A stretch of DNA of 64,000 bases. It comes from Planotetraspora silvatica. Lineage in GTDB: Bacteria > Actinomycetota > Actinomycetes > Streptosporangiales > Streptosporangiaceae. Positions 20,479-42,869 of this stretch are shown piece after piece. The notes below the pieces were generated by a model, which was given only the letters and a program-made list of their open reading frames with translations, was not told the DNA's origin and made no database searches. A program made the translations under genes and the position numbers. The first letter of the stretch is position 1; every line of letters starts with the position of its first letter. The stretch is from positions 124,001 through 188,000 of the forward strand of contig NZ_BOOQ01000030.1 of NCBI RefSeq assembly GCF_016863315.1, given 5' to 3'.

Positions 20479-21522
20479 TCACTTGAGCATGACCTTGATG
20501 GACTCCCGGGAGGCCATCGCGGCATACCCCTGGGCCACGTCCTCCAGCGGGAGCGTGGTGTCGAAGACCGGGCCGGGATCGAGGGTGCCCTCCACGATCC
20601 GCGAGATCAGGTCGGGGAGGTACCTGCGGACGGGAGCGACCCCGAGATTCAGGCTCAGATGGTGGATGAGGGGCTGGAACAGCGGCAACTCCGGCATCGT
20701 GTGCGGCATGCCGACCGCGCCGATCGCTCCTCCCTCGCGGGCCATGCCGACGGCCATCGCCCAGGACTCGGGCGTGCCGACCGCTTCCACCACATGGCGG
20801 ACGCCCAGGCCGCCGGTCCTTTCGCGGACGGCCGCGATGCCCTCGTCGCCCCGCTCGGCGATGACGTCCGTCGCTCCGAACGCCTTGCCGATCGCGGCGC
20901 GGTCTGCGTGCCGGCTCATCAGGAAGATCCGGTCGGCCCCGAGGACGGCCTTCGCCCCGAGCACCGCGCACAGTCCGACCGCCCCGTCGCCGATGACGGC
21001 CACCGCCGAACCTTCGGTGACCCCGGCCATGACTGCTCCGTGCAGCCCCGTGGCCATCACGTCGGAGGTGGACAGGAGCGCGGCGTACAGCGACTCGTCG
21101 ACTCCGCTCACGCCGCCCGGCACGGCCACGAGGGTTCCGTCCGCCTGGGGAACCCGCACGGCCTCGCCCTGGCCGCCGTCGGTGCCCGGCGCGCCGAAGG
21201 TGCCGCCGTTGGCGCACGAGCTCTGGATCCCGTCCACGCAGGCCGGGCAGGTGTTGTCGGACCATTTGAAGGGCGCGACGACGAGGTCGCCGGGGTGGAG
21301 AGTCCGGACCTCGTCGCCGACCTCCTCGACGATGCCCATGAATTCGTGGCCCAGCCGGGATCGCTCGGCGCGGTTGATGACGCCGCGGTAGGACCACAGG
21401 TCCGAACCGCAGACGCAGGAACGGAGAACCCTGACCACGGCGTCGGTGGGCTGGGACAACGACGCGTCGGGCACGTCGTCGACGACGACGTTCCCAGCGG
21501 ACAGGTAGAGAGCGGCACGCAC
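20479..21522 (-). CDS. Zinc-dependent alcohol dehydrogenase (MDR family)
   Basis: 347 residues. Catalytic zinc ligands are recognisable as Cys38 in VCGSD and His59-Glu60 in GHE. The nucleotide loop GDGAVG follows at about 178. The structural-zinc lobe has only three cysteines (92, 95, 103) instead of the usual four, so that site may be empty or use another ligand. It oxidises an alcohol or reduces a carbonyl with NAD(P); the substrate is unknown. It converges with the kinase gene and lies 49 bp beyond the start-distal end of the reductase/amidase fusion on the same strand, so it is probably its operon partner and may belong to the peptide or amide pathway. Confidence 0.88.
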   Translation of the reverse strand: MRAALYLSAGNVVVDDVPDASLSQPTDAVVRVLRSCVCGSDLWSYRGVINRAERSRLGHEFMGIVEEVGDEVRTLHPGDLVVAPFKWSDNTCPACVDGIQSSCANGGTFGAPGTDGGQGEAVRVPQADGTLVAVPGGVSGVDESLYAALLSTSDVMATGLHGAVMAGVTEGSAVAVIGDGAVGLCAVLGAKAVLGADRIFLMSRHADRAAIGKAFGATDVIAERGDEGIAAVRERTGGLGVRHVVEAVGTPESWAMAVGMAREGGAIGAVGMPHTMPELPLFQPLIHHLSLNLGVAPVRRYLPDLISRIVEGTLDPGPVFDTTLPLEDVAQGYAAMASRESIKVMLK

Positions 21523-21571
21523 GGAGAGTTCGCCTTCGTTCGGGGGTTGACGTAGGGGTCGGGGGAGCGGG

Positions 21572-23716: not shown

Positions 23717-23984
23717 GAGGGATCCGCCCTAGTTTGGTAGCTCTTGGGGGGCTTTGCCGTCGGACACTACCTGAACCGATTTGAATGCTCTAGTCTGCAT
23801 CTGCTGGTGAACTCGGGACGGCGACCTTACGTATGACAGCTGATTCGCTCGTAATCTTTGCGAAACGTAGAAGTGCTCGAATACCTCATGGCCGCGCCCG
23901 ATCAGCCTCCGATCGGATCCCCCCGGGCCTCTCCGAACCGTTCTGATCCACAGAGCACGACCGTGAAACCCATGAAGGATAGGC
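23717..23984. promoter_or_regulatory. Divergent promoter region between the fusion gene and the transporter operon
   Basis: 268 bp without a gene, AT-richer than the flanks around 23760-23880 (for example TTGAATGCTCTAGTCTGCAT). It must hold the promoters for both directions. I find no strong palindrome. GAAGGA lies 5 bp upstream of the ATG of the binding-protein gene. Confidence 0.5.
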
Positions 23985-25619
23985 ATGTCTGACCAGAGCC
24001 ATGACGCGTTGAACACCTCGCACTCGGAGATACCCCCGGGCCTCAGGGTCCCCGCGATCAGCAGGCGCCGGATGCTCCAACTGGGCGCCCTCGGCATAGG
24101 AGCCTTCTCCGCTGCGCCGCTGCTGGCCGCCTGCGGGTCCACCTCGACCACCTCGCAGGCCACCTCGGGCGGGACCAAGAAGGGAGGCAACCTCGTCATC
24201 GTCCGCGACCACGACGCGGTGAACATGGACAAGACGACGGTGTTCAGCAACGGCTCGATCTGGATCTACAACCAGATGTACGAGCCGCTGGTGGCCATGA
24301 CGGACGACGGCCAAGGGGTGAAGCCCTGGCTCGCGGAGAGCTACGAGATGTCGCCGGACAACCTGTCCTGCACGCTGAAGCTCAGGCAGGGCGTGAAGTT
24401 CCACAACGGCCAGCCGATGACCTCGGCCGACGTGAAGTTCTCCATCGACGAGTCGAGCAAGACCAAGGGCGGCTGGGAGTTCATCAACTCCGCGATCAAG
24501 GAGGTGACCACCCCGGACGACTACACCGTCGTGGTGACCACCAAGTACCCGTGGGCGCCGCTGCTGGCCGACCTGAGCTGCCCGAACAACGGCATCATCC
24601 CCAAGGACTACGCGGGCAAGACCAAGGACGAGTTCTACGCCGCCCCGATCGCGACCGGCCCGTTCATGTGGGACACCTGGCAGAAGGGCAGCTCTCTCAC
24701 ACTGAAGAAGCACCCGTCCTACTGGCAGCCGGGCAAGCCGTACCTGGACTCGGTCACCTGGAAGGTGGTCGCGGACAGCAACGCCCGCGCGCTCCAGCTG
24801 CAGGGCGGGCAGGCGCACATCAACGAGGCTCCGCCGTTCTCCAGCATCGCGCAGCTCAAGAACACGCCCAATGTGAAGGTCGATGTGTTCCCGTCCACCA
24901 GGACGGACTACATCATGATGAACTTCACCAAGAAGCCGTACGACGACGTGCACGTGCGCCGCGCCATCTCCTACGCCGTCGACCGGGAGGCGCTGGTCAA
25001 GAACATCCTGTTCGGCTACGGCACCCCGGCGAACTCGTTCATGATGCCGTCCACGCCGTACTACGACAAGAACACCCCCGGCATCCAGTACGACATGGCC
25101 AAGGCCAAGGAGGAGATGAGCCAGTCGAGCGTGCCGAACGGCTTCACCACCACCTGGCTGGCCATGTCCGGCGACGCGGTGGACGCGGCGATCGCGCAGG
25201 TCCTGCAGGCGTCGCTGAAGGAACTCGGCATCACCATGAACATCCAGAACGTGGACCCGAGCGCTCAGCACGACCTGACCGGCAAACTCCAGTACGAGAT
25301 CGCGCACTCGTACTGGACGATGGACCTCGCCGACCCCGACGAACTGGCGCAGTTCGCGCTCGACCCGACGACCGGCGGGCACTCCTTCGACACCGGCTTC
25401 AACGACCCGTCGATCATCGACCTGGTGCACCAGGCGCAGAAGGAGTTCGACAAGACCAAGCGCCAGGACCTGTACAGCCAGCTCCAGCTGAAGGCCGCCG
25501 AGTCCGCGTTCATGGCGTTCCTGTTCTACACGCCGTTCCCGTACTCGACCTCCAGCAAGGTCCAGGGCTTCAAGGTCCTGCCCACCGGCTCCTACCACAT
25601 GGAAGACGTCTCCTTCTGA
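23985..25619 (+). CDS. ABC transporter substrate-binding lipoprotein, oligopeptide/dipeptide family (SBP family 5)
   Basis: 544 residues. The N-terminus carries a twin-arginine signal SRRRMLQ (26-32) followed by a lipobox LLAAC with Cys50, so it is a Tat-exported lipoprotein on the outer face of the membrane. The mature part follows the DppA/OppA plan: YEPLVAM, LAESYEMSPD, KLRQGVKFHNGQPMTSADVKFS, and ARALQLQGGQAHI. It captures a peptide-like ligand and hands it to the permeases encoded downstream. It is the first gene of a tightly packed operon reaching at least to the MaoC gene. Ligand cannot be deduced directly; the downstream enzymes suggest an unusual peptide. Confidence 0.95.
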   Translation: MSDQSHDALNTSHSEIPPGLRVPAISRRRMLQLGALGIGAFSAAPLLAACGSTSTTSQATSGGTKKGGNLVIVRDHDAVNMDKTTVFSNGSIWIYNQMYEPLVAMTDDGQGVKPWLAESYEMSPDNLSCTLKLRQGVKFHNGQPMTSADVKFSIDESSKTKGGWEFINSAIKEVTTPDDYTVVVTTKYPWAPLLADLSCPNNGIIPKDYAGKTKDEFYAAPIATGPFMWDTWQKGSSLTLKKHPSYWQPGKPYLDSVTWKVVADSNARALQLQGGQAHINEAPPFSSIAQLKNTPNVKVDVFPSTRTDYIMMNFTKKPYDDVHVRRAISYAVDREALVKNILFGYGTPANSFMMPSTPYYDKNTPGIQYDMAKAKEEMSQSSVPNGFTTTWLAMSGDAVDAAIAQVLQASLKELGITMNIQNVDPSAQHDLTGKLQYEIAHSYWTMDLADPDELAQFALDPTTGGHSFDTGFNDPSIIDLVHQAQKEFDKTKRQDLYSQLQLKAAESAFMAFLFYTPFPYSTSSKVQGFKVLPTGSYHMEDVSF

Positions 25620-25659: not shown

Positions 25660-26601
25660 ATGAAGTATCTGGTCTACATTCTCAAACGGCTGGTGTCCCT
25701 GATCCCGGTGCTGCTGGGGATCTCGTTCATCGTGTTCTTCCTCATCCGCCTGATACCAGGGGATCCGGCGGCCACGTTGCTCGGGTCGCACGCCACTCCC
25801 GACGCGATCCGCGAACTGCGCATCCAGTTGGGGCTCACCGATCCGTTGTGGAAGCAGTACCTGACGTTTCTCGGTCACCTGTTGCAGGGCAACCTCGGTT
25901 ACTCGTACGTGTACAGCAGTTCGGTCCTGGACCTGGTCACGATCAGCCTGCCGGTGACGATCTGGCTGCTGGTCTCGGGCACCGTCTTCACGCTCCTGAT
26001 CGCTGTGCCGTTGGCCGTCCTGGCCGCGGCACGGCGAAACGGGATCGCCGACAACATCATCCGGGCGGTGCCGGTCGTGGGACTGGGACTGCCGGCGTTC
26101 TGGCTCGGCATCATGTTGATCCTGGTCTTCGGGTTGAAACTGGGCTGGTTCCCGGTCGCCGGGTACGGTGACACGCTGTCGGACCACCTGCGCGGCATGG
26201 TGCTGCCGGGCGTCACGATCGCCCTGACCCTCTCGCCGATCCTGATCCGCAGCCTGCGGGCCAGCATGATCGACGTGCTGAGCAGTGACTACATCGTGAC
26301 GGCGCACGCCAAGGGGATCAGCACCTCGCGAGTGGTGCTCGGTCACGCCCTGCGCAACGCCGCGGTCTCGTCGGTCACCGTCCTCGGCGTGAACATCGCC
26401 TATCTCACCGGATCGACGCTCGTGGTCGAACGGGTCTTCTCGCTGCCCGGCATCGGACAGCAGATGATCAATTCCATTCTCGGAAGGGACTTCCCCACCG
26501 TGCAGGGAATCACCTTGATGTTCGCGATCATGGTCGTGGTCGTGAACCTGTTGACCGACGTCACGCACGCCGCGCTCGATCCCCGGGTCAAGCTCGCATG
26601 A
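25660..26601 (+). CDS. Oligopeptide ABC transporter permease (DppB type)
   Basis: 313 residues with six hydrophobic segments. The start MKYLVYILKRLVSLIPVLL is the classical N-terminus of DppB/OppB, with FFLIRLIPGDPA shortly after. The EAA-loop region reads DYIVTAHAKGISTSRVVLGHALRNA, the contact site for the ATPases. It forms the membrane channel with the next gene product. It follows the binding protein by 40 bp and overlaps the next gene by ATGA. Confidence 0.95.
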   Translation: MKYLVYILKRLVSLIPVLLGISFIVFFLIRLIPGDPAATLLGSHATPDAIRELRIQLGLTDPLWKQYLTFLGHLLQGNLGYSYVYSSSVLDLVTISLPVTIWLLVSGTVFTLLIAVPLAVLAAARRNGIADNIIRAVPVVGLGLPAFWLGIMLILVFGLKLGWFPVAGYGDTLSDHLRGMVLPGVTIALTLSPILIRSLRASMIDVLSSDYIVTAHAKGISTSRVVLGHALRNAAVSSVTVLGVNIAYLTGSTLVVERVFSLPGIGQQMINSILGRDFPTVQGITLMFAIMVVVVNLLTDVTHAALDPRVKLA

Positions 26602-27464
26602 GCGCTTCGACGAGTGTCGGTCCCGTCCTGCCGGCGGTCACCGGCACGCCCCGGCGCAGGCGCGGGCGATGGAACGTCCCCCTTGTGGCGGGGCTGGTGC
26701 TGTTCGCCCTCATCGTCCTGTGCGCGCTCTGCGCGCCCCTGCTGACGAGCTACGACCCGATCCAGCAGAACCTGAACGACGCCTTCCTCGCGCCCGGTGC
26801 GAAGAATCACCTGCTCGGCACCGACTCGCTCGGACGCGACGTGCTCTCCAGGCTGCTCTACGGCGCGCGCGTCGACCTCCGGGTCGGCGTGCTGGCGGTC
26901 ATCTCGCCATTCGTGATCGGCAGCCTGCTCGGCCTGATCTCGGGATGGTTCGGCGGGTGGATCGACGCCGTCATCGGCCGCATCGTCGACATGGTGATCG
27001 CCTTCCCGTTCCTGGTGCTGGTCATCGCGCTGGTGTTCGCGATGGGCCCCGGCACGACGAGCATCTACACGGCCATCACGCTGGTCGGCTGGGTGGCGTA
27101 CTGCCGCATCGTGCGCGGCCAGGTGCTGATCGCCAAGGAGCAGGAGTACGCGATGGCGGCCAGGGCCAGCGGCCTGCCGACGTGGCGGATCCTGCTGCGG
27201 CACCTGCTGCCCAACGTCGTCCTGCAGGCGATCGTCTTCTCGATGAGCGACATCGTGCTGACCCTGCTGGCGATCGTGACCCTGGGCTTCCTCGGTCTCG
27301 GGGTGCCGCCACCCACCCCCGACTGGGGAACCATGATCCAGGAAGGCCAGCAGTTCATCTTGGACAAGTGGTACATGTCCACGATCCCCGGCCTGGCGGT
27401 CGTCCTGACCGGCCTGGCACTGGCGTTGATCGCGGACGGCATCGTGGAGAAGGCGAACAAATGA
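26598..27464 (+). CDS. Oligopeptide ABC transporter permease (DppC type)
   Basis: 288 residues. It has the DppC/OppC layout: a basic N-terminus, a first membrane helix at about 27-48, then LLGTDSLGRDVLSRLLYGAR, a signature of this subfamily, and the coupling loop EYAMAARASGLPTWRILLRHLLPN. It pairs with the preceding permease. Start and stop overlap both neighbours by 4 bp. Confidence 0.95.
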   Translation: MSASTSVGPVLPAVTGTPRRRRGRWNVPLVAGLVLFALIVLCALCAPLLTSYDPIQQNLNDAFLAPGAKNHLLGTDSLGRDVLSRLLYGARVDLRVGVLAVISPFVIGSLLGLISGWFGGWIDAVIGRIVDMVIAFPFLVLVIALVFAMGPGTTSIYTAITLVGWVAYCRIVRGQVLIAKEQEYAMAARASGLPTWRILLRHLLPNVVLQAIVFSMSDIVLTLLAIVTLGFLGLGVPPPTPDWGTMIQEGQQFILDKWYMSTIPGLAVVLTGLALALIADGIVEKANK

Positions 27465-28492
27465 CCGCGCCACTGCTAGAGGTCCGCGACCTGCACGTGG
27501 ACATCCCGATGTCGCACGGACGGCTGCACGCGGTCCGCGGGGTGTCCCTTTCGGTCGGCGTCGCCGAGTCGGTCGGGCTGGTCGGCGAGTCCGGCTCGGG
27601 CAAGAGCCTGACGCTGCGCGCGCTGCTCGGACTGCTGCCACGTCCGGCCAGGATCGCCTCCGGAACCGTGCTGATCGACGGTGAGGACGTGACCGGGCTG
27701 CCGGCCAAGCAGTTGCACCGCCGGCTGACCGACACGATGGGCATGGTGTTCCAGGACGCCCTGACCGCGTTGAATCCGGTCATGCGCGTCGGCGACCAGA
27801 TCGCCGAGGCGCCGCTGCGCAAGCTGGGCAAGTCGCGCAGCGAGGCGAAGGCGATCGCGATCGACCTCATGACGGAGGTCGGCATCCCCGACCCCGAGCG
27901 CCGCTACCGCCTGTATCCCCACGAACTGTCCGGCGGGATGCGCCAGCGCATCTGCATCGCGATCGCGTTGTCCACCAAGCCGCGGCTGATCCTGGCCGAC
28001 GAGCCGACCACCGCGCTCGACGTGACGATCCAGGCGCAGGTCCTCGGCGTGCTGCGCCGGCTCAAGCAGGAGGAGAACGTCGGGCTCCTGCTGGTCAGCC
28101 ATGATCTCGCCGTGGTCAGCCAGACCTGTTCGCGGCTCTATGTGATGTACGCCGGCAAGGTCGTGGAGTCCGGCACCCTGCTCGACCTGGTCACCGCGCC
28201 CAAGCATCCGTACACGTTCTCGTTGCTGCGTTCGGTGCCCGATCCGGATCATCGCGTCGCCCGGCTGCTGACGATCCACGGGCAACCGCCCGACCTCAGC
28301 GAGGCCATCAGCGGATGTTCCTTCGCAGCCCGGTGCCCGTTCGCCGAAGAAGCCTGCCACCAGCGGGAACCGGTGCTGGCGCCGGTCGGATCGGCACCGG
28401 GCGCCGTGATCCGTGAGAGCGCCTGCCTGCGCGTCGGCACCGCGGAGCGCTGGACCGAGATGGTCTCTGAAGAAACGGTGAGTCAGCAGTAA
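27461..28492 (+). CDS. Oligopeptide ABC transporter ATPase (DppD type)
   Basis: 343 residues from the ATG at 27461 overlapping the dppC-type stop. Walker A GESGSGKS is at 42-49, the signature is LSGGMRQR, and Walker B is LILADEP followed by the D-loop region TTALDVT. The C-terminal cysteine-containing extension GCSFAARCPFAEEAC is the oligopeptide-specific domain that binds an iron-sulfur cluster in some homologues. It works as a heterodimer with the next gene product. Confidence 0.95.
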   Translation: MTAPLLEVRDLHVDIPMSHGRLHAVRGVSLSVGVAESVGLVGESGSGKSLTLRALLGLLPRPARIASGTVLIDGEDVTGLPAKQLHRRLTDTMGMVFQDALTALNPVMRVGDQIAEAPLRKLGKSRSEAKAIAIDLMTEVGIPDPERRYRLYPHELSGGMRQRICIAIALSTKPRLILADEPTTALDVTIQAQVLGVLRRLKQEENVGLLLVSHDLAVVSQTCSRLYVMYAGKVVESGTLLDLVTAPKHPYTFSLLRSVPDPDHRVARLLTIHGQPPDLSEAISGCSFAARCPFAEEACHQREPVLAPVGSAPGAVIRESACLRVGTAERWTEMVSEETVSQQ

Positions 28493-29544
28493 TGGCGGGA
28501 AACGAGATCCTCTCAGTCGAAGGCCTGGCCAGGCACTTCACCCCTCCGGTGGCGGTCACCGACCGGATCTTCGGCAAGAAGCCGGTGGTGAACCGCGCCG
28601 TCGACGGCGTGGACCTGGTCCTGCACAAGGGGGAGACGCTCGGCCTGGTCGGCGAGTCCGGCTGCGGCAAGTCCACTCTCGCGCGCTCCATCGTCGGCCT
28701 CTACCGGCCCACCGCGGGTGAGATCCGCTATGACGGCGAACCCCTCCAGGCGAAGCGGACCCGTGCCCAGCACCGCGCCATACAGATGGTGTTCCAGGAC
28801 CCGTACAGCTCGCTGAACCCCCGGATGACCGTCGAGCAAACGCTGTCGGAGTTGCTCCGGTTCCACAAACTGGTCCCGCGTAACAAGGTGGGGGAGCGCA
28901 ACCGGGAACTGATGCACCTGGTCGGCCTGCCCGAGCGGGCCCTGACGCAGCGGCCGCGCCAGTTCTCCGGCGGGCAACGGCAGCGCGTGGGCATCGCCCG
29001 CGCGCTGGCGCTCGAGCCGACGGTGCTGATCGCCGACGAACCGGTGTCGGCACTCGACGTGTCGGTGCAGGCCAACATCATCAACCTGCTCACCGATCTC
29101 AAGGAGACGCTCGACCTGTCGGTCATCTTCGTCTCGCACAACATGGCGGTCGTGCGGCAGATCAGCGATCGGACCGCGGTCATGTACCGGGGCCGCATCG
29201 TCGAGACCGGTGACACCGACACCCTGTTCGACGACCCGGTTCACCCCTACACCAAGCTGCTCATCGGCTCGGTGCCGAGGCTCGCCGGCGAAGGCGACCG
29301 GGGCGAGCCGGACGCGGCGGTGGCCGAGGCCGTCGTCGCGGAGAGCGGACAGAGCCCCGTCCTCGACGAGGTCGTCCGGTCGGCGGCACGCGAAGGAACC
29401 AGTCCGTGCCGTTACGCCGACCGTTGCCCGGCCGTCGTCGCCGCGTGCGCCGACGAGCCCTCCCTGATCATCGATCCACGTGACGGCAGCCGGTCGGCCG
29501 CCTGCGTCCACGTACCAGAACGAGCTGAAGGAGTAATCGCGTGA
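28492..29544 (+). CDS. Oligopeptide ABC transporter ATPase (DppF type)
   Basis: 350 residues. Walker A GESGCGKS at 54-61, signature FSGGQRQRVGIARAL, Walker B VLIADEP. DppF-like features include FQDPYSSLNPRMTV and the C-terminal PCRYADRCPAVVAAC segment. It shares a TAATG stop-start with the preceding gene and a GTGA overlap with the next, so peptidase and transporter genes are translationally linked. Confidence 0.95.
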   Translation: MAGNEILSVEGLARHFTPPVAVTDRIFGKKPVVNRAVDGVDLVLHKGETLGLVGESGCGKSTLARSIVGLYRPTAGEIRYDGEPLQAKRTRAQHRAIQMVFQDPYSSLNPRMTVEQTLSELLRFHKLVPRNKVGERNRELMHLVGLPERALTQRPRQFSGGQRQRVGIARALALEPTVLIADEPVSALDVSVQANIINLLTDLKETLDLSVIFVSHNMAVVRQISDRTAVMYRGRIVETGDTDTLFDDPVHPYTKLLIGSVPRLAGEGDRGEPDAAVAEAVVAESGQSPVLDEVVRSAAREGTSPCRYADRCPAVVAACADEPSLIIDPRDGSRSAACVHVPERAEGVIA

Positions 29545-33765: not shown

Positions 33766-34263
33766 ATGACCGTACGCACCGGATGGCAGGGCCGCTACTT
33801 CGAGGACTTCGAGGTCGGCGACGTGTATCAGCATGGCCTGGGGCGCACGGTCACCCAGGCGGACAACGTCTGGTTCACCCTGCTCACCCAGAACACCGCT
33901 CGAGTGCACTTCGACGCGCATTACGCCGCGCAGACCGAGTTCGGCCGGCCACTCGTGAACTCGGCCTTCACCATCGCGCTCGTGACCGGGCAGTCCGTCA
34001 ACGACGTCTCCTACAACGTGATGGCGAACCTGGGGTGGGACGAGGTGCGGCTGCCGAACCCCCTGTTCGAGGGCGACACGGTCTACTCGTCCTCCGAGGT
34101 GCTCGCGCTCCGGGAGTCGCGTTCCAGACCGGAGGTCGGAATCGTCACCGTGCGGACCACGGGCACCAACCAGGAGGGGACGGTCGTCATCACCTTCAAC
34201 CGGACGGTGATGGTCTACCGGCGAGGCTTCGGACCCGCGCATGGACCGATGACCGGCGGATGA
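33766..34263 (+). CDS. MaoC-like single hot-dog hydratase, candidate mesaconyl-CoA hydratase
   Basis: 165 residues from the ATG one base after the CoA-transferase stop. The start GRYFEDFEVGDVYQHGLGRTVTQAD and the VHFDAHYA segment are typical of MaoC-type dehydratases. In the hydratase-2 motif the usual aspartate is Asn43, five residues before His48; several relatives have this Asn. Characterised mesaconyl-CoA hydratases are about twice as long (double hot-dog), so a homodimer is expected. It would turn mesaconyl-CoA into beta-methylmalyl- or citramalyl-CoA. The CitE-type lyase needed to split that product is not in the window. Confidence 0.85.
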   Translation: MTVRTGWQGRYFEDFEVGDVYQHGLGRTVTQADNVWFTLLTQNTARVHFDAHYAAQTEFGRPLVNSAFTIALVTGQSVNDVSYNVMANLGWDEVRLPNPLFEGDTVYSSSEVLALRESRSRPEVGIVTVRTTGTNQEGTVVITFNRTVMVYRRGFGPAHGPMTGG

Positions 34264-34351: not shown

Positions 34352-34912
34352 TCAGCCGGGCGGGCCCGACAACAACTCGGCCACCAGGTTCTTCGGCGCG
34401 ATCTCCACGAGGCTCAGCATCGTCTCGGTCCGCTGCACGCCTTCGATCTGCCAGATGTGATTCATGAGCAGTTGCCGCAGATGCAGGTGATCACGTACCC
34501 GGAGCCGGGCGAGCATGTCGATGGCGCCCGTGACGATGTCGAGCCCCTCCAGTTCCGGGATGAGGGCGAGTTTCTCGACGAGTTCCCTCTGCTGGTAGCC
34601 CTGGACGGCCGTGATCGTCAGGTACACCGTCATCGGGAAGCCCGCTGCGGACCAGTCCAGGGCTATGCCGTAACCGCGGATCACGCCGAGGCGCTCCAGG
34701 CGCGCGATGCGTTCGCCGACCGCGGGGGCGGACATCCCGAGCTCACGGGCCAGCGCCCGCTGGGAGCGCCGGGAGTCCTTGCTGAGCAGCACGAGTATCT
34801 GCCGATCCACGTCGTCGAGGGGGACCGGCGGCGACTGCGCGGGAACGTCGGTCAGATCGCGCAGCGGAGCTGTCGAGGCGTTGGGTGCGGCGGCTCGGCG
34901 TCGAGGGGGCAT
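34352..34912 (-). CDS. Lrp/AsnC-family transcriptional regulator
   Basis: 186 residues from the ATG at 34912. A basic 30-residue N-terminal tail precedes the helix-turn-helix: LDDVDRQILVLLSKDSRRSQ, then RALARELGMSAPAVGERIARLERLGVI. The C-terminal RAM (ligand-binding, oligomerising) domain runs from about residue 95. No good ribosome site precedes the ATG, so the start is uncertain. Lrp/AsnC proteins sense amino acids. The gene lies between the two peptide-catabolism gene runs and diverges from the second, so it is the natural local regulator of the island. Confidence 0.92.
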   Translation of the reverse strand: MPPRRRAAAPNASTAPLRDLTDVPAQSPPVPLDDVDRQILVLLSKDSRRSQRALARELGMSAPAVGERIARLERLGVIRGYGIALDWSAAGFPMTVYLTITAVQGYQQRELVEKLALIPELEGLDIVTGAIDMLARLRVRDHLHLRQLLMNHIWQIEGVQRTETMLSLVEIAPKNLVAELLSGPPG

Positions 34913-35210: not shown

Positions 35211-35924
35211 GTGCGGGTCTTCGACAGCAACTGGATGCAGATCGCCGCCTACCTCCAGCACGACGATCGCGTCGTGCTTCCCGTCGGCTCGACCGAGCAG
35301 CACGGGTACCTCTCGCTCGGGACGGACGCGCTCCTGGCCGAGCGGGTGTCGGTGGAGGCGGCGGAGCCGCTCGGCGTGCCGGTCCTGCCGGTCCTGCCGT
35401 TCGGCATGGCGCCGTACTTCACCGAGTACCCGGGCAGCATGAGCCTGCGGATCAGCACCTACATCGAGGTGATGCGCGACCTGCTGGACTGCCTGGCCTC
35501 CCAGGGGTTCCGGCGGATCGCGGTGGTCAACGGCCACGGGGGCAACGCGCCCGTCGCCGGCCTCATCCGCGAATGGATCAACCGGCCGCGGGAGCACCGC
35601 GTGCAGGTCGTGTTCCACAGCTGGTACAACGCGCCGAAGACGGCGGAGGCCGCCGCCCGGTTCGACGAGGACCAGTACCACGGTTCCTGGCTGGAGAACT
35701 TCGCCTGGACGAGGGTCGCCGGAGCCGAGATCCCCACCGGCAGCGCGCCGGTGCTGCCGAGGTCGGTGGCGAACAACGCGACCGCGCAGGAGATGAGGGC
35801 GCTCTCGCCCGACGGAAGCCTGGGCGGGGCTTATCAGCGCAGTGACGAGGACATGCAGATCGTCTGGGACGCCGGTGTGGCCGAGGTCCGCGAACTGCTC
35901 GAGAAGGGATGGCTCGACCAGTGA
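35211..35924 (+). CDS. Creatininase-family amidohydrolase
   Basis: 237 residues from a GTG; GGAG lies 11 bp before it. The binuclear metal motifs of the family are present: PVGSTEQHG with Glu29 and His31, Asp39 in GTDA, and NGHGGN with His109. The family includes creatinine amidohydrolase, the mycofactocin peptidase MftE and formamide hydrolases, so the family name does not fix the substrate. The product opens a cyclic or simple amide. It is the first gene of a run continuing with an SDR and five hydrolases, so I expect it to act on a fragment of the same compound. Confidence 0.88.
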   Translation: MRVFDSNWMQIAAYLQHDDRVVLPVGSTEQHGYLSLGTDALLAERVSVEAAEPLGVPVLPVLPFGMAPYFTEYPGSMSLRISTYIEVMRDLLDCLASQGFRRIAVVNGHGGNAPVAGLIREWINRPREHRVQVVFHSWYNAPKTAEAAARFDEDQYHGSWLENFAWTRVAGAEIPTGSAPVLPRSVANNATAQEMRALSPDGSLGGAYQRSDEDMQIVWDAGVAEVRELLEKGWLDQ

Positions 35925-36619
35925 CAACAGGCAACGGCAGGATCGCCGTCGTCACCGGCACGGCGCACGGGATCGGGTCGGCCATCGCGGCCGCGCTCGA
36001 AGCGGACGGGGCCCGGGTGCACGGCATCGACAAGGACACGGTGGACGTGACCGATTCGTCCGCGGTCCGCGACTACTTCGCCGAGATCGGTGACGTCGAC
36101 ATCCTGGTCAACAACGCGGGCGGGGTCGTCGGCCAGGTTCACCACCCGATCGAGGAGATCACCGACGAGGACTGGTCCGCCGTGGTCGCGGCCAACCTGA
36201 CCAGCACCTTTCTGTGCACCAGGGCGGTGGCGCCGGGAATGAAGCGGCGGGGTTTCGGCCGGATCGTCAACATCTCGTCCGGCGCGGGCCGCAGCGTCAG
36301 CCTGACCGGCATCCAGGCCTACGCCAGCTCGAAGGCCGGCCAGATCGGCTTCACCCGCCAGATGGCGCACGAACTGGGCCCGTTCGGCATCACGGTCAAC
36401 TGCATCGCGCCGGGATTCGTCCTGTCCAACCCCACCACCATCAAGCAGTGGGAGAGCTACGGCGAGCAGGGACAGGCCGCGCTCGTCGAAGGCATCGCGG
36501 TGCGCAAGCTCGGGGCGCCGGAGGACATCGCGCACGGTGTCCGGTTCTTCGTCTCCGAGTCCTCGTCCTGGATCACCGGCCAGACCCTCTCGATTGATGG
36601 CGGACATGCTCTCTTTTAA
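35921..36619 (+). CDS. Short-chain dehydrogenase/reductase
   Basis: 232 residues from the GTG at 35921 that overlaps the preceding stop (GTGA); an ATG four codons earlier at 35909 is possible. Motifs: TGTAHGIG at 12-19, NNAGG, the catalytic serine in NISSGAG and YASSK for Tyr and Lys. The classical SDR order is intact and the C-terminus ends SIDGGHALF. It oxidises or reduces a hydroxyl/keto group with NAD(P). It is translationally coupled to the creatininase-family gene, so both probably handle consecutive steps. Confidence 0.92.
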   Translation: MTTGNGRIAVVTGTAHGIGSAIAAALEADGARVHGIDKDTVDVTDSSAVRDYFAEIGDVDILVNNAGGVVGQVHHPIEEITDEDWSAVVAANLTSTFLCTRAVAPGMKRRGFGRIVNISSGAGRSVSLTGIQAYASSKAGQIGFTRQMAHELGPFGITVNCIAPGFVLSNPTTIKQWESYGEQGQAALVEGIAVRKLGAPEDIAHGVRFFVSESSSWITGQTLSIDGGHALF

Positions 36620-37985
36620 CTCGACCGACGCCGAATACCTCGAAGAACTCGCCGGCTACGTCGCGGTGCCCAGCGTGAGCCGGGACGCGACCGAGGAGAC
36701 CATGCGGTCCGCCGCGGAATGGCTCGCGGCCCAGTTGTCCTTCGCGGACGGCCGCGTCGTCGCGACGGCGGGTCACCCGGTGGTGCGGGGCGACTGGCTC
36801 GGAGCTCCGGGCGCTCCCACGATCCTGGTCTACGGCCACTACGACGTGCAGCCGACCGGCGACCTCGCCGAGTGGCGCACCCCTCCGTTCGAGCTCACCG
36901 TCGACGGCGACGTGATCCGCGGACGCGGAGTCACCGACGACAAGGGCCCGGTTTTCATCGTGCTCAAGGTGGCGCAGGCGTTCCTCGAGCAGGAGGGCGC
37001 GCTGCCGCTGAACATCAAGTTCCTCTTCGAGGGAGAGGAGGAGATCGGCAGCCCCCACCTTCCCGCCTATCTGCGGGAGCACGCGGACGAACTCGCGGCC
37101 GACCTGGTGATCTCCGCCGACGGAGCCATGTGGCGCCCGAGCGAGCCGTCCCTGTCGATCGCCTCCAAGGGCCTGGTCACCCTGGACATCGAGGTCACCG
37201 GCGCGGAGGGCGACCTGCACTCCGGGCGGTTCGGCGGCACGGTCGCCAACCCCGTGCACGCCCTGAGCGAGATCCTGGCGGGACTCCACACACCCGAAGG
37301 ACGGGTCGCGGTCGACGGCTTCTACGACGGGATACCCGAGCTGAGCGACGAGCGCCGTGCCGCCATCGCGGCGGTGCCGTTCGACGAGGACCGCTACCGC
37401 GACGACCTCGGCCTGGACAACGTCTTCGGTGAAGCCGGCTACAGCACGCTGGAACGGCTGTGGGAGCGTCCCACCCTCGAGATCAACGGGATCAGAGCCG
37501 GCGGCAAGTACACCGTCATCCCGCACATCGCGACCGGCCACATCTCCTGCCGGCTGGTACCGGGACAACGCCCGGAGCGGGTGCTCCAGGCGATCACCGA
37601 CCACGTGCTCGCGCACAAGCTCACCGGCGTCCGCGTCGCGGTCCACGCCGACGAGGGCGGGGTGCCCGCGTACACGATCCCGGCCGACCACCCGGCGATC
37701 CGGGCCGCCGGCGCGGCGCTCGAGCACGTCTACCCCGGCCAGGACGTCCTGCTGGCGGTCATCGCCGGGACCCTGCCCGCCACGGCGCTGTTCGAGGAGG
37801 TGCTGGGCGCCAAGACGCTCTTCTTCTCCTTCTCCACGGCGGACGAGAACCTGCACGCGCCGAACGAGTTCATGCGCGTCTCCCGGCTGCGCGAGGGCAT
37901 GCGCGCCTGGGAACACCTGTGGCGGCTGCTCGCCGACGGACCCCACCGGCTGGCTCCGGTCCGGCACGACGGGCCCGCGCGATGA
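36597..37985 (+). CDS. M20-family metallopeptidase (dipeptidase/carboxypeptidase)
   Basis: 462 residues from the ATG at 36597, 23 bp inside the SDR end; an ATG at 36606 is an alternative. Di-zinc residues: His81 and Asp83 in GHYDVQP, Asp114 in GVTDDKGP, Glu147/148 in FEGEEEIGS, and a histidine in ENLHAPNE. The lid domain lies between about residues 195 and 330. M20 enzymes of this subgroup cleave dipeptides and N-acyl or beta-alanyl amino acids. The gene is inside the operon with ATGA coupling to the M19 gene. Confidence 0.92.
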   Translation: MADMLSFNSTDAEYLEELAGYVAVPSVSRDATEETMRSAAEWLAAQLSFADGRVVATAGHPVVRGDWLGAPGAPTILVYGHYDVQPTGDLAEWRTPPFELTVDGDVIRGRGVTDDKGPVFIVLKVAQAFLEQEGALPLNIKFLFEGEEEIGSPHLPAYLREHADELAADLVISADGAMWRPSEPSLSIASKGLVTLDIEVTGAEGDLHSGRFGGTVANPVHALSEILAGLHTPEGRVAVDGFYDGIPELSDERRAAIAAVPFDEDRYRDDLGLDNVFGEAGYSTLERLWERPTLEINGIRAGGKYTVIPHIATGHISCRLVPGQRPERVLQAITDHVLAHKLTGVRVAVHADEGGVPAYTIPADHPAIRAAGAALEHVYPGQDVLLAVIAGTLPATALFEEVLGAKTLFFSFSTADENLHAPNEFMRVSRLREGMRAWEHLWRLLADGPHRLAPVRHDGPAR

Positions 37986-39175
37986 CCGGTGAGCCGTACC
38001 GGTCCTACGGTTATCTCACCCCGGGCGTCGACCTTCCCGTCTTCGACCTGGCCCCGGAGTTCGGCCGCGTTCCGCCGTACACCGACGGGCTCGGCGCGGA
38101 GGACCGGTCGCGGGCGGAGCGGCTGCTGCGCGACACCATCGTGATCAGCCTGCACGACCATCCGGTGCGGTTCCCCGCCGACATGCGTCAGACCCCGGAG
38201 TACAACCGCACCGGACGCCAGCACACGGCGTTCGCCGGGCTCGCCGCCTCCGGCATGACCGTGGTGTTCGACAACATGATGGACGGCACCGCCTGCGTCA
38301 CCGGCAACGCGCCGTGGCGGTGGCTGGACATCATCACCGATCTGGGCATGCGGCAGGCCGACATCGCCCACCAGGACGACGTCATCGTGGTCCGGACCCT
38401 GGCCGACATCGACCACGCCCACCGGACAGGCAAGGTGGGACTGGTGTTCGGCCTGGAGGCGGCGACACCGATCGAGAACGAGATCGACCGGCTCGACGTC
38501 CTCTACGGACTCGGTCTCCGCCAGATCGGCATCGCGTACTCCGACGCGAACGCGCTCGGCAGCGGCCTGAACGAGACCACCGACGGCGGGCTGACCGACT
38601 TCGGCAGGCGTGCGATCGCCCGGATGAACCGACTGGGCCTCGCGATCGACATCTCTCACTCCTCCGACCGCACCGGCCTCGACACGTGCGCCGTCAGCGA
38701 GCGGCCCGTCTTCATGACGCACGCGGGAGCCCGCGCGGTCTGGGACACGCCGCGGATGAAGCCGGACGACGTCCTGCGCGCCGTGGCCGAGACCGGCGGA
38801 GTGATCGGGATGTCCGCGGCGCCGCACACGACGCTGTCCCACGCCCATCCGCGGCACAGCATCCTGTCGGTGATGGACCACTTCCGGTACTGCCTGGATC
38901 TGGTCGGCATCGACCATGTCGCGTTCGGGCCCGACACCCTTTACGGCGATCACGTCGGTCTCCACACCGTCTTCGGGCACCTGCTCAAGGTGGGGGCCGC
39001 GGCCCCCGGGGGTCCCCCGTTCGAAAAGGTGGAGTACGTGGACGGCCTGGAGAACCCGACCGAGAACTTCGCCAACATCTGCGGCCTGCTGGTGCGTGAA
39101 GGCTTCTCCGACAGCGAGATCACCGCGGTGCTCGGCGGCAACATCCTCAGAGCGCTCAAGCAGATCTGGGTCTAA
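37982..39175 (+). CDS. M19-family membrane-dipeptidase-like peptidase
   Basis: 397 residues. Motifs of renal dipeptidase relatives: SLHDHP at residues 57-61 (the usual H-x-D reads H-D-H here), FGLEAATPIEN for the bridging glutamate, DISHSS and MTHAGAR for the second-metal histidines, and GPDTL near the C-terminus. M19 enzymes often accept D-residues at the C-terminal position of dipeptides, which would suit the D-aminopeptidase encoded upstream. No signal peptide is visible. ATGA overlap with the M20 gene. Confidence 0.9.
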   Translation: MTGEPYRSYGYLTPGVDLPVFDLAPEFGRVPPYTDGLGAEDRSRAERLLRDTIVISLHDHPVRFPADMRQTPEYNRTGRQHTAFAGLAASGMTVVFDNMMDGTACVTGNAPWRWLDIITDLGMRQADIAHQDDVIVVRTLADIDHAHRTGKVGLVFGLEAATPIENEIDRLDVLYGLGLRQIGIAYSDANALGSGLNETTDGGLTDFGRRAIARMNRLGLAIDISHSSDRTGLDTCAVSERPVFMTHAGARAVWDTPRMKPDDVLRAVAETGGVIGMSAAPHTTLSHAHPRHSILSVMDHFRYCLDLVGIDHVAFGPDTLYGDHVGLHTVFGHLLKVGAAAPGGPPFEKVEYVDGLENPTENFANICGLLVREGFSDSEITAVLGGNILRALKQIWV

Positions 39176-39316: not shown

Positions 39317-41032
39317 GTGGCCGACAAAGAGGTCGCAGCCGAGCCGAACGCCCAGCTCTCTCAGCTGAGTGCGGAGTTCTTCCAGATCAAGCACACGGCC
39401 GACCCGTTCAGTGCGACGCTGCTCGGCGTCTCCGGCTTCGACGGCCTGGTGCCCGACGTCAGCCGCGCCGGATCGAGCGCCGACGCCGCGAAGTTCGCCG
39501 ACCTCGAACGGCGGTTGGAGGACATCGATCCCGAGACCCTCAACCCCGCCGACCAGGTCAACCACGCGGTGCTCGGCCGCCTCTCCTGGGCCGCGCGGTC
39601 GGATCTCGAGCACGCCCTGTGGGAGACGGGGGCGTCGGCGGACGGGTACTCCGCGCCGCAAGGGATGATGTTCATGGCGGTCCCCGAGGCGCCGCTGAAG
39701 GACGCCGAGGCCACCGAGCAGTACATCCGGCGGCTGTCCGCCCTGCCGCCGTTCCTCGACGCGATACTCGACCGCTACCGGGAGGCCAAGGCGGACGGCC
39801 GGATCCCGACCCGTGTCGGCGTCGGCCAGGCCATCGACCAGCTCACCGGCCACATCGCGCTCAGCCTGTCCGACGACACCCTGCTCAGCCCCCGGCTGCC
39901 GGCCGGCGTGGACGAGGACCGGATCAGGGCCCGCGCGGCCGAGATCGTCGAGGAGTCCGTCCGTCCCGCGCTGCGCCGGCTGCTCGACGGCCTGCGGGAC
40001 GAACTGCTGCCGGTCGCCCGGCCCGACGACAAGGTCGGCATCCGGTTCGTCCCCGGCGGCGAGGAGGGCTACGCCGCCGCGGTGCGGCGGCACACCACCA
40101 CCGACCTGACCCCGGAGGAGATCCACCAGATCGGCCTGGACTGCCTCGCGGAACTGCGCCCGGAATGGTCCGAGCTGGGCGGCCGGGTGCTCGGCACCGG
40201 TGACGTGCGGGAGGTCATGACCCGGTTGCGGGAGGACCGGTCGCTGCGGTTCGGCGACGCCGGTCAGATCGTCGAGACGGTCACCGACGCGCTGCGGCGC
40301 GCGGAGGACGCCCGCGACGACTGGTTCCCCGCCTACGACATCGCCGACTGCGTCATCGAGGAGATCAACCCGATCGAGGCGGGCAACGCGGCGCTGGCGT
40401 ACTACCGGCCGCCCGCCGGTGACGGGTCCCGGCCCGGAGCACACTGTGTGCTCACGGCCGACCCGCAGGAGCGCTTCGTCTACGAGTACGAGGCGCTGGC
40501 CTTCCACGAGAGCACACCCGGGCACCACCTGCAGATCGCCTCGGCGCAGACGCTCACCGAGCTTCCGGAGTACCGGCGCTTCCTGGACGCCGAGGTGTGC
40601 GGCTACGTCGAAGGCTGGGGCCTGTACAGCGAGCGGCTGGCCGATGAGATGGGGCTGTACACCTCGGACGTCTCCCGGCTGGGGATGCTCTCGTTCGACG
40701 CGCTGCGGGCCTGCCGGTTGGTCGTCGACACCGGCATGCATCATCTGGGCTGGTCACGGCAGCAGGCCATGCAGTTCATGTGGGACAACACCGCGACCAC
40801 CCAGGCCAACGTGCGCAACGAGATCGACCGCTACATCGCGTGGCCCGGCCAGGCGCTCGCCTACATGATCGGCCGGCGCGAGATCCGCCGTCTGCGCGGC
40901 GTGGCGCAGGATCGGCTCGGATCCCGGTTCGACGTCCGCGCCTTCCACGGGACGGTGCTCGGCAACGGCGCGGTCCCGCTCGGGGTGCTCGAGCAGATCG
41001 TCACCGGCTGGATCGACACCGTGCCCGCCTGA
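39317..41032 (+). CDS. DUF885-family metallopeptidase-like protein
   Basis: 571 residues from a GTG with GAGGA 7 bp upstream. The family's metal signature HESTPGHHLQ (His397, Glu398, His403-404) and EGWGLYSERL further on are intact; these resemble the gluzincin arrangement of M3/M32 peptidases. The protein is otherwise all-alpha and lacks a signal peptide, so it is cytoplasmic. DUF885 proteins are predicted carboxypeptidase-like enzymes, few of them characterised. It continues the run of peptide-cleaving enzymes after a 141-bp gap, with its own repeats in the leader. Confidence 0.9.
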   Translation: MADKEVAAEPNAQLSQLSAEFFQIKHTADPFSATLLGVSGFDGLVPDVSRAGSSADAAKFADLERRLEDIDPETLNPADQVNHAVLGRLSWAARSDLEHALWETGASADGYSAPQGMMFMAVPEAPLKDAEATEQYIRRLSALPPFLDAILDRYREAKADGRIPTRVGVGQAIDQLTGHIALSLSDDTLLSPRLPAGVDEDRIRARAAEIVEESVRPALRRLLDGLRDELLPVARPDDKVGIRFVPGGEEGYAAAVRRHTTTDLTPEEIHQIGLDCLAELRPEWSELGGRVLGTGDVREVMTRLREDRSLRFGDAGQIVETVTDALRRAEDARDDWFPAYDIADCVIEEINPIEAGNAALAYYRPPAGDGSRPGAHCVLTADPQERFVYEYEALAFHESTPGHHLQIASAQTLTELPEYRRFLDAEVCGYVEGWGLYSERLADEMGLYTSDVSRLGMLSFDALRACRLVVDTGMHHLGWSRQQAMQFMWDNTATTQANVRNEIDRYIAWPGQALAYMIGRREIRRLRGVAQDRLGSRFDVRAFHGTVLGNGAVPLGVLEQIVTGWIDTVPA

Positions 41033-41094
41033 CGCCTGCCCTTTCAGACTTCCGTCCCCCGCTTCTCCGGACTTGTTTTCAGCTAGGAGTGCAC

Positions 41095-41946
41095 GTGTTC
41101 GTAGAGATCAATGGAGCGCAGCTCAACGTCGAGGTCCTCGGCCGGGAGGGCGCGCCCGTGCTGATCGCCCACCACGGCGGTGGCGGCATCGGTTCGCTGG
41201 CCGAGCCGAAGTCGACGTTCGGCCCGCTCGCCGACATCTTCCGCGTGGTGGTGTTCGACGCCCGCGGCTGCGGCCTGAGCGAGGCCGTGCCGCCCTACTC
41301 CCACGCGCAGTGGGCCGCCGACGTCGACGCCCTGCGCGAGTGGGCCGGCGCCGAGAAGATCGTGATCGCGGGCGGCTCCTACGGCGGTTTCATCGCCATG
41401 GAGTACGCCATCGCCTACCCCGACCGGGTGAGCGCGATGATCCTCAGGGACACCTCGCCGGATCGCACCAACCTGGAGGTCGCCACGGAGAACGCCCGCA
41501 AGCAGACCCGGGTGGAACTCAACTGGGAGAACTACGAGCGGTACTGGAGCGGCAACATCCGCGATGACGAGGATCTGAAGGCCTGCTGGGCCGAACTGAT
41601 CCCGCTGTACGACTTCGAGTACGACCCGGTGGCCGCCGCGGCGCGGGTGGAGGCCGGCATCTACCGTCATGAGGCGCACAACTGGTGCTTCCAGCACAAC
41701 GCCCCGATCTATGACGTCAAGCCGCAGCTTCCGTCCGTCACCTGCCCCACCCTGGTCACGGTGGGCCGTACGGACTGGGTGACCCCGGTGTCGTCGGCGG
41801 AGACGATCGCCTCGCTCATCCCGAACTCGAAGCTGGTCGTCTTCGAGAAGTCCGGCCACTCACCGCAGATCGAGGAGGCCGAACTGTTCCAGCAGACGAT
41901 GCGCGACTTCCTCGCGGAGGCGTTGCCGGGGACGGCGGCCCGATGA
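41095..41946 (+). CDS. Alpha/beta hydrolase, proline-iminopeptidase-like
   Basis: 283 residues from the GTG at 41095, with AGGAG 5 bp upstream; a GTG six bases earlier is less well placed. The oxyanion region is AHHGGGGIG, the nucleophile elbow GGSYGG at 93-98 (Ser95), then VGRTDWVTP for the acid and SGHSPQ for the histidine. The VFDARGCGLSE stretch is typical of proline iminopeptidases and close relatives. It may remove an N-terminal residue or cut an ester or amide of the imported compound. It overlaps the next gene by ATGA. Confidence 0.88.
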   Translation: MFVEINGAQLNVEVLGREGAPVLIAHHGGGGIGSLAEPKSTFGPLADIFRVVVFDARGCGLSEAVPPYSHAQWAADVDALREWAGAEKIVIAGGSYGGFIAMEYAIAYPDRVSAMILRDTSPDRTNLEVATENARKQTRVELNWENYERYWSGNIRDDEDLKACWAELIPLYDFEYDPVAAAARVEAGIYRHEAHNWCFQHNAPIYDVKPQLPSVTCPTLVTVGRTDWVTPVSSAETIASLIPNSKLVVFEKSGHSPQIEEAELFQQTMRDFLAEALPGTAAR

Positions 41947-42869
41947 TCACGCGGCGGACGCTGAGCATCCCCGAACTCGGTCCGGACGGTCTCGACATCC
42001 CGTACTTCGACATCCGAGGTCGCGGGGACGGGCCCCTGCTCACGGTGCTCTCGGGCGTGCACGGGGCCGAGTACGCCTCGATCGCGGCTGTCCGCGAATT
42101 CGTGCGGGATCTCGATGTGGAGACCGTCTCCGGCCGGATCATCGCCGTTCCGGTGGCCAACGTGCCGGCGTTCTGGGCCAGGACGCCGTTCGTCGTCCCG
42201 GCCGACGGCAAGAACCTGAACCGGCACTTCCCCGGTGACCCCGACGGCACGTTCACCGAGGTGCTCGCCCACCATCTGTTCACCTCGTTCATGGTCGGCG
42301 CCGACTACGTGGTCGACCTGCACGCCGGCGACGTGCCCGAGGCGCTCGAGCCGTTCGCGATCTTCGAGGAGTCCCCGGTCGAGGCGGCGTCGCGCGACCT
42401 CGCCGTGGCGTACGGCGCCGGGCACATCGTCCGGCAGGCCGCGGTGGCACGGACGGTGGCCGGCAGCAGTTGCGCCGCCGCCGCGGATGCCGGCATCCCG
42501 GCCATCATCGCCGAGTCCGGTCAGAACGGCCTGCTCGACCGGGCCGCGATCGACAGGCACGTGGCGGGGCTGAGTAACATCGCCAGGTCCATCGGCGTGC
42601 TCGACGGTGATCCGTGGCCGGCGCGCGAAGCTCAGTGGCATGAAGGCTGGCACTGGCTGCGCACCGACCGAGCCGGCTGGTGGCAGCCCGCTGTGACGAC
42701 GGGGGAGCCGGTGCCGGCCGGTGGGCTGCTCGGAACCATGAGCGACGTCTGGGGTGAGGTGTTCGCCGAGGTGCGGGCGCCCGAGGCCGGTACGCCCCTG
42801 TTCCTGACGACCAGCCCGGCGGTGTCCGCGGACGGCCTGCTGCTCGGTCTCGCGCGCTCGGGCACCTGA
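41943..42869 (+). CDS. Succinylglutamate desuccinylase / aspartoacylase-family zinc deacylase (M14-like)
   Basis: 308 residues. Zinc ligands His40 and Glu43 in SGVHGAEY and His127 in DLHAGD; NLNRHFPG at 91-98 is the substrate carboxylate-binding segment of the family. Members remove the acyl group from N-succinylglutamate or N-acetylaspartate, or act as carboxypeptidases. In this context an N-acyl-aspartate-type substrate is attractive but unproven. It is the last gene of the run; the next gene starts 82 bp on and is unrelated. Confidence 0.9.
   Translation: MITRRTLSIPELGPDGLDIPYFDIRGRGDGPLLTVLSGVHGAEYASIAAVREFVRDLDVETVSGRIIAVPVANVPAFWARTPFVVPADGKNLNRHFPGDPDGTFTEVLAHHLFTSFMVGADYVVDLHAGDVPEALEPFAIFEESPVEAASRDLAVAYGAGHIVRQAAVARTVAGSSCAAAADAGIPAIIAESGQNGLLDRAAIDRHVAGLSNIARSIGVLDGDPWPAREAQWHEGWHWLRTDRAGWWQPAVTTGEPVPAGGLLGTMSDVWGEVFAEVRAPEAGTPLFLTTSPAVSADGLLLGLARSGT

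Follow-up and report, generated by a model that had tools for sequence, protein, structure and literature searches.

Introduction

3-Methylaspartate is usually regarded as an intermediate that a B12 enzyme forms from glutamate, and the locus described here raises the question of whether a bacterium may instead obtain it from outside. The locus is a gene island at positions 20479–42869 of a 64 000 nt stretch of Planotetraspora silvatica DNA (contig NZ_BOOQ01000030.1, positions 124 001–188 000; hereafter the window), in which a gene for methylaspartate ammonia-lyase (MAL) stands among genes for a Dpp-type transporter and a series of hydrolases. We consider it likely (probability about 60 %) that the island is one catabolic unit, with a mutase-free methylaspartate pathway in which 3-methylaspartate derived from an imported compound enters a mesaconyl-CoA trunk. 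The proposal of a first-pass annotation, that the island imports and dismantles an unusual peptide, proves right in outline, given the co-occurrence of the genes, the MAL active site and a mutase that was not detected.

Results

Conservation of the island around MAL

Neighbourhoods were compared in 53 MAL loci (L008–L057 and L059–L061) of 57 from other genomes; L007, from a near-identical congener, and L058, L062 and L063, which hold MAL fragments, were dropped. Genes were scored as present from 28 % identity upwards. Set A denotes two or more of 12 named transporter and hydrolase genes of the island, and set B one or more of the five genes described below. Set A alone was found in 33 loci, both sets in two, set B alone in 14 and neither in four, which places set A near MAL in 35 of the 53. 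Asparaginase-2 lies in the flanks of 25 loci, M55 in 24 and both in 22; the ketopantoate-reductase-like gene, with or without its amidase part (KPR), lies in 30, M20 in 29, M19 in 27, DUF885 in 23, creatininase in 21 and the CoA-transferase in 28. Absences are weak evidence, since flanks of at most 10 kb were examined and many contigs are shorter. Without the ten closest loci (L008–L017), set A is found in 25 of 43 and asparaginase-2 together with M55 in 14 of 43. Thus mal co-occurs with M55 and isoaspartyl-peptidase-type genes across several actinomycete families and in shuffled orders, as the first-pass annotation had anticipated, and the contrary outcome that it had considered, dispersal of the genes in every relative, was not seen.

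The window's gene order is kept in most Streptosporangiaceae loci. Several Microbacteriaceae, one Geodermatophilaceae and one Pseudonocardia locus share the order SDR–DUF885–ABH–KPR–(ADH)–MAL–(Crea)–M20–(M19), where SDR is a short-chain dehydrogenase, ABH an alpha/beta hydrolase, ADH an alcohol dehydrogenase and Crea the creatininase-family gene. Homologues of the window ADH stand in clusters of the island's kind in L015, L030, L042, L056, L061 and L070. Two loci from genomes of 1.4–1.6 Mb (L026 and L047) have KPR, SDR, Dpp, asparaginase-2, M55, MAL, M20 and M19. On a MAL tree of 63 rows (the 53 loci, the window, the congener locus L004, L078 and seven plasmid rows, duplicate copies from the same genome having been removed), which was built by a quick method and is weak in its deep forks, the set A label changes at least nine times, four of the changes being forced by starred branches; the link between MAL and set A has therefore survived, or been rebuilt through, rearrangement.

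At the level of whole genomes, a sample of 200 from the order was searched for MAL (E ≤ 1e-60) and for the reductase–amidase fusion of the island (E ≤ 1e-100). MAL was found in 15 and the fusion in 14, with both in 13, MAL only in two, the fusion only in one (G187) and neither in 184 (Fisher p = 1.6e-17, a value that ignores shared descent). In all 13 the two genes lie on one contig within ~10 kb; these genomes span four genera and include P. silvatica itself and three congeners, a further congener (G003) having neither gene. The MAL of the two MAL-only genomes is divergent (46 % identical). In a class sample of 394 genomes MAL was present in 11.

These counts bear on the possibility that the transporter and peptidases serve general scavenging of ordinary or D-residue/cell-wall peptides for nitrogen, with MAL, CoA-transferase and hydratase as a separate neighbouring module. 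Dpp, M20, M19 and M55 proteins are often scavengers, as in the Bacillus subtilis dpp operon, and a related core occurs without MAL in stretches of Deinococcus plasmids, as does set A in G187. However, MAL overlaps both of its neighbours by 4 bases, set A stays near MAL in its 35 loci despite reordering, and fusion and MAL are jointly present or absent in 197 of the 200 order genomes; creatininase, too, occurs only with MAL among the class genomes, but in just two of them, P. silvatica and one other. We therefore regard scavenging as unlikely.

The MAL active site and the source of 3-methylaspartate

By its sequence, the island protein looks like a genuine MAL: it scores 553 bits on TIGR01502 (cut-off 286) and 516 bits against the solved Clostridium structure 1kcz, with residues 1–412 aligned, and is 99 % identical to the MAL of Planotetraspora mira. 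In the alignment it keeps Q73, Q172, H194, D238, E273, D307, K331, T360, C361 and L384, the catalytic and binding residues given in PMC7241714. The same paper assigns to Gln329 of studied MALs a role in stabilising the enolate; the window MAL has His at this position rather than Gln. Of the 63 aligned MALs 53 share this His, among them 33 of the 36 rows with set A and all 14 with set B; the eight rows with neither set divide 4 and 4, and the three mutase-linked MALs all carry Gln329. From the alignment, His329 could either mark a lineage or reflect altered specificity. Action on a methyl-less substrate was considered and appears less likely, as the methyl-pocket residue Leu384 is kept in 62 of the 63.

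Two MAL-like genes (479–1747 and 10001–11257; ~42 % identity) flank a Dpp-type transporter on a plasmid of Rhizobium sp. 007 (L067). The copy at 479 deviates at residues 73, 172, 361 and 384 and possibly has another function.

Glutamate mutase E (MutE, PF06368) had no match in the P. silvatica genome, none in 46 of the 50 other MAL genomes searched (a set, used also for the CoA-transferase search below, from which L007, L009, L012, L013, L058, L062 and L063 were left out) and none in the flanks of the 53 MAL loci. Two of the four matches exceed the cut-off; three matches are weak or partial (24.5–27.4 bits, one just over the cut-off) and one is strong (291 bits), which indicates that the search is able to detect the protein. 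The strong match belongs to Nonomuraea jiangxiensis (G010, L016), a genome that also carries a set A island, on another contig. There the mutase gene lies beside genes for an AMP-binding enzyme, a VinK-type acyltransferase and an alpha/beta hydrolase (L075:6369–12104), a neighbourhood that resembles a macrolactam biosynthesis cluster and methylaspartate use of the vicenistatin type. Considering that the MAL active site is kept and that no mutase was detected in the genome, we favour an outside source of 3-methylaspartate.

In principle the trunk reactions can go either way, and MAL has been used for synthesis in vitro, so that lyase, hydratase and CoA-transferase could be imagined to run in reverse, with MAL aminating mesaconate to 3-methylaspartate for a product. 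Such a biosynthetic direction seems very improbable to us, since no non-ribosomal peptide synthetase, polyketide synthase or RiPP (ribosomally synthesized and post-translationally modified peptide) enzyme is found among the 20 island genes scanned, importer and hydrolases predominate, and the sole strong MutE match in MAL genomes sits in the separate, biosynthesis-like neighbourhood just described.

A second MAL neighbourhood

Set B consists of genes for an amino-acid permease, an isochorismatase-like hydrolase, a gamma-glutamylputrescine-synthetase-like member of the glutamine synthetase (GS) family (437 bits to GGputSyn, below the cut-off of 650), an amidohydrolase and a class II glutamine amidotransferase (GATase), joined in part by SDRs. 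Eight of the 14 loci with set B alone have at least two of the five genes and six the isochorismatase-like gene alone; a CoA-transferase lies near 10 of the 14, and MaoC with a lyase near three. Examples are L027:2198–13894, L024, L033, L044, L048 and L054, with GntR and then MAL, the gene sets being incomplete per locus; L027 and L024 include CoA-transferase, MaoC and lyase. The two sets adjoin in L040, L035 combines parts of both, and in G016 a set B contig (L073) carries CoA-transferase–MaoC–lyase with no MAL in the stretch, the MAL of this genome being on a set A contig (L022). Its gene content suggests that set B leads into the same trunk by gamma-glutamylation, and sets A and B look like two front ends of that trunk.

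The oxidoreductases invite a different view of the substrate, namely that it is a valine-derived or gamma-hydroxyvaline-type amide, the released side chain of which would be oxidised by SDR, ADH and reductase to 3-methylaspartate or its 2-oxo acid, MAL then acting as deaminase. Formally, 3-methylaspartate corresponds to valine in which one methyl has been oxidised, set A contains three kinds of oxidoreductase, and set B joins MAL with SDRs, a gamma-glutamyl ligase-like GS and a class II GATase. Yet from the presence of asparaginase-2 and AstE-type enzymes one would expect aspartyl-like moieties, and no direct evidence speaks for such an amide, which makes this substrate distinctly improbable in our judgement.

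Candidate enzymes of the trunk

The window CoA-transferase is best matched, under the cut-offs, by models of succinate–glutarate and mesaconate CoA-transferases (succinyl-CoA:mesaconate CoA-transferase NF041294, 236 against 700 bits). For the window MaoC protein the best model is RipB/Ich (NF038241; 210 bits, cut-off 340), and 2-methylfumaryl-CoA hydratase, the haloarchaeal Mch, gives 86 bits (NF041625; cut-off 560). A lyase of the HpcH/CitE family in L068 is closest to RipC/Ccl (155 bits, cut-off 375). The likeness to RipB and RipC favours acetyl-CoA and pyruvate as end products.

Four relatives carry a citramalyl-CoA-lyase-like gene at the island: behind AstE in L068 and L079, behind AstE and MaoC in L069, and ahead of ADH in L070. 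In the window genome no lyase was matched inside the island; a MaoC–lyase pair (76 % identity to the MaoC query and 36 % to the lyase query) lies away from it on contig C42 (L071:4659–7577), beside an Nramp-family gene. The lyase search matched 19 of 20 genomes and, this being an enzyme family with many paralogues, only island-adjacent lyases were counted. A CoA-transferase of at least 58 % identity is present in 31 of the 50 other MAL genomes. Of 20 set A loci with no such gene in the flank, seven belong to genomes that carry it at another place; on the island contigs of G013 and G051 it stands ~15 and ~12 kb from MAL.

Gene content of the island

All genes named in the first-pass annotation are in place: 20 open reading frames (ORFs) belong to the families predicted beforehand, with Pfam scores over cut-off (Table 1). 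DppB–DppC–DppD–DppF–asparaginase-2–M55–MAL–CoA-transferase–MaoC form one plus-strand run in which neighbours overlap by 1–4 bases or stand 1 base apart; a second overlapping run (4–16 bases) comprises creatininase, SDR, M20 and M19, and a 4-base overlap joins the genes of the alpha/beta hydrolase and the AstE-type enzyme, all these lengths depending on the start codons chosen for the ORFs. The fusion and ADH genes are divergent from the transporter run, and the Lrp gene, for which an ATG near 34912 is a possible start instead of the open-frame start at 35062, lies mid-island. Genome-wide, matches over cut-off number one for MAL, one for Asparaginase_2 and two for M55, and three such rare families adjacent in a genome of 8.66 Mb exceed what chance would group. 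A promoter scan of 23600–43200 gave no sigma-70-type site (1.2 expected); the same interval has eight terminator-like sites (5.5 expected).

Table 1. Genes of the island, with window coordinates
Gene product	Position	Strand	Family evidence
Zinc-dependent alcohol dehydrogenase, set A edge	20479..21522	-	PF00107/PF08240
Ketopantoate-reductase-like domain + amidase fusion, 714 aa	21572..23716	-	PF02558 (ApbA) 96 bits + PF01425 239 bits, one frame
Family-5 solute-binding protein	23985..25619	+	PF00496 (SBP_bac_5) 334 bits
Dpp-type permease B	25660..26601	+	PF00528
Dpp-type permease C	26598..27464	+	PF00528/PF12911
Dpp-type ATPase D	27461..28492	+	PF00005 + PF08352
Dpp-type ATPase F	28492..29544	+	PF00005 + PF08352
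Asparaginase-2 (Ntn) hydrolase, glycosylasparaginase-like	29541..30488	+	PF01112 205 bits
M55 D-aminopeptidase-family protein	30485..31309	+	PF04951 298 bits
Methylaspartate ammonia-lyase	31306..32568	+	MAAL_C 348 bits, MAAL_N 221 bits; TIGR01502
Family III CoA-transferase, putative mesaconate CoA-transferase	32565..33764	+	PF02515 (CoA_transf_3) 411 bits
MaoC hydratase, RipB/Ich-like, putative mesaconyl-CoA hydratase	33766..34263	+	MaoC 66 bits, PF19315 (MC_hydratase) 83 bits
Lrp/AsnC regulator, start uncertain	34352..34912	-	PF13404 + PF01037
Creatininase-family amidohydrolase	35211..35924	+	PF02633 151 bits
Short-chain dehydrogenase (adh_short)	35909..36619	+	PF13561
M20 dipeptidase	36606..37985	+	Peptidase_M20 103 bits; NF006053 463 bits, over cut-off 441
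M19 (membrane-dipeptidase family) peptidase	37982..39175	+	PF01244 222 bits
DUF885 protein with HESTPGHH stretch	39317..41032	+	PF05960 510 bits
Alpha/beta hydrolase, proline-iminopeptidase-like, start codon uncertain	41083..41946	+	PF00561 (Abhydrolase_1) 106 bits; TIGR01250 97 bits, below cut-off 168
AstE/AspA-family deacylase	41943..42869	+	PF24827 (AstE_AspA_cat) 98 bits

More specific identities are harder to assign. The call of an isoaspartyl-peptidase-like enzyme in the first-pass annotation holds for the family, Pfam Asparaginase_2; the protein is nevertheless nearer to glycosylasparaginases (best PDB matches 1p4k and 9gaf) than to isoaspartyl peptidases and stays far below the cut-off of the IaaA equivalog (NF007589; 99 against 567 bits). 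The M55 protein belongs to its Pfam family and falls short of the DppA equivalog (NF058634; 191 against 430 bits). The creatininase-family protein is under the cut-offs of Creatininase (80 against 235 bits), MftE (61 against 172) and IolN (56 against 245), and the top NCBIfam models for the solute-binding protein, GsiB and NikA, are far under theirs.

Outside the island, a serine/threonine kinase gene with C-terminal WD40 repeats (18431–20449) directly adjoins it. A predicted tRNA-Pro(GGG) at 50415–50515 is unusually long (101 bases) and may be a false call or contain an insertion.

Discussion

Taken together, the analyses presented here show a genuine and conserved island whose genes make up a functionally coherent set. 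We infer every reaction, its direction and its substrate as follows. The Dpp-type ABC transporter would import a modified peptide or peptide-like amide, which the peptidases and amidases (asparaginase-2, M55, M19, M20, DUF885, alpha/beta hydrolase, amidase, creatininase-family and AstE-type enzymes, several of them from families known for unusual bonds), together with the ketopantoate-reductase-like enzyme, SDR and ADH, would dismantle to 3-methylaspartate or a direct precursor. MAL would deaminate 3-methylaspartate to mesaconate, the family III CoA-transferase would convert mesaconate to mesaconyl-CoA, and the RipB-like MaoC enzyme would hydrate the latter. A citramalyl-CoA-lyase-like enzyme, island-adjacent in some relatives and perhaps supplied from another contig here, would cleave the product, most likely to acetyl-CoA and pyruvate or else to propionyl-CoA and glyoxylate. 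Uptake and hydrolysis would thus take the place of glutamate mutase as the entry to the pathway.

With regard to the substrate, an iso-aspartyl or beta-methylaspartyl peptide fits the gene set. Residue 3 of microcystin is an iso-linked D-beta-methylaspartate, and lipopeptides of the amphomycin/friulimicin type, with methylaspartate, D-residues, proline and an acyl group, fit the enzyme mix. Nothing favours microcystin over other methylaspartyl compounds, though no search was aimed at microcystin-breakdown families; the lipopeptides, being too rare, can hardly explain the spread of the island. We tentatively suggest, as a possibility that falls short of an even chance, that there is an as yet unrecognised natural peptide or amide that yields 3-methylaspartate and is open to many actinobacterial families, with genomes down to ~1 Mb, and that it is used through a dedicated modular island with interchangeable front ends, A (peptide-type) and B (gamma-glutamylation-type), on one mutase-free trunk.

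Several observations weigh against a single catabolic unit fed with 3-methylaspartate from outside. For no named family do the CoA-transferase, hydratase and lyase reach the equivalog cut-off. Where the flank of a set A locus has no CoA-transferase (20 loci), 13 have no close one genome-wide, although several of these genomes measure only 0.8–1.8 Mb, and nine of the 11 class genomes with MAL have no creatininase at E ≤ 1e-40. His329, carried by most actinobacterial MALs, may mean a substrate different from the classical one. Moreover, three rhizobial operons with MAL–CoA-transferase–lyase have no mutase annotated in the stretch (the gene table being incomplete), so that actinobacteria are not alone in having no mutase close by.

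Additionally, parts of the island occur with no MAL. G187 carries set A genes and has no MAL match, and two Deinococcus plasmids (L086:2599–15488 and L090:2795–15276) carry consecutive genes for Dpp, GntR, creatininase, reductase, SDR and M20, with a carboxypeptidase nearby (M32 in L086) and no MAL in the stretch. The L086 proteins are 51 % (creatininase), 46 % (KPR domain), 56 % (SDR) and 52 % (M20) identical to those of the window. MAL, CoA-transferase, asparaginase-2 and M55 gave no tblastn match in L086 and none is annotated in L090; no Deinococcus record in the plasmid collection has MAL at E ≤ 1e-40, Deinococcus chromosomes lying outside this search. The core may therefore act on a compound or bond type that needs no MAL. 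Considering these clusters together with G187 and the permease context of set B, the compound may be something other than a classical peptide, and MAL may handle one part of it only.

Among known systems, the methylaspartate pathway or cycle of Clostridium and haloarchaea shares with the island, according to PMC5592240, the series MAL, family III CoA-transferase, MaoC hydratase and CoA-ester lyase; the island differs in having no detected mutase and in having an importer and peptidases, and its one-domain hydratase is nearer to RipB than to haloarchaeal Mch. Three alphaproteobacterial plasmid operons with glmS–(glmL)–mutE–MAL–CoA-transferase–lyase follow MAL with CoA-transferase and lyase, as in the island pathway, but start from the mutase, have no peptidase set annotated, and are accompanied by a fumarate-hydratase-type gene rather than MaoC. 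In itaconate degradation (RipABC or Ict–Ich–Ccl; PMC12290011), RipB and RipC are the closest counterparts of the island hydratase and lyase, which points to acetyl-CoA and pyruvate as probable end products; the scores are nevertheless far under the cut-offs, and entry to the island pathway is by MAL and a family III CoA-transferase.

The Deinococcus clusters of Dpp, creatininase, ketopantoate reductase, SDR and M20 have a core homologous to the island, but their reductase is not fused to an amidase, and none of the 36 plasmid records matching the reductase–amidase fusion covered 80 % of the query. The dpp operon of B. subtilis, which serves murein peptide use, likewise joins a Dpp transporter with an M55 D-aminopeptidase and an enzyme of the enolase superfamily; unlike it, the island has MAL in place of the Ala-Glu epimerase, many more hydrolases and an M55 protein below the DppA equivalog cut-off. 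Among the open-access PMC titles and abstract openings listed, from a collection that subscription journals mostly fall outside, we found none on MAL with these peptidases or on a mutase-free actinobacterial island.

Finally, a MAL with no mutase, placed in a conserved island beside an importer and some ten hydrolases, leads one to expect that 3-methylaspartate comes from outside. Judged by the 11 MAL genomes among 394 of the class, the pathway is uncommon, and yet it recurs in several families. Knowledge of the substrate would assign functions to the creatininase-family enzyme, the reductase–amidase fusion and the DUF885 protein together, and the island might reveal a recycling of residues such as those in amphomycin-type lipopeptides or cyanobacterial peptides.

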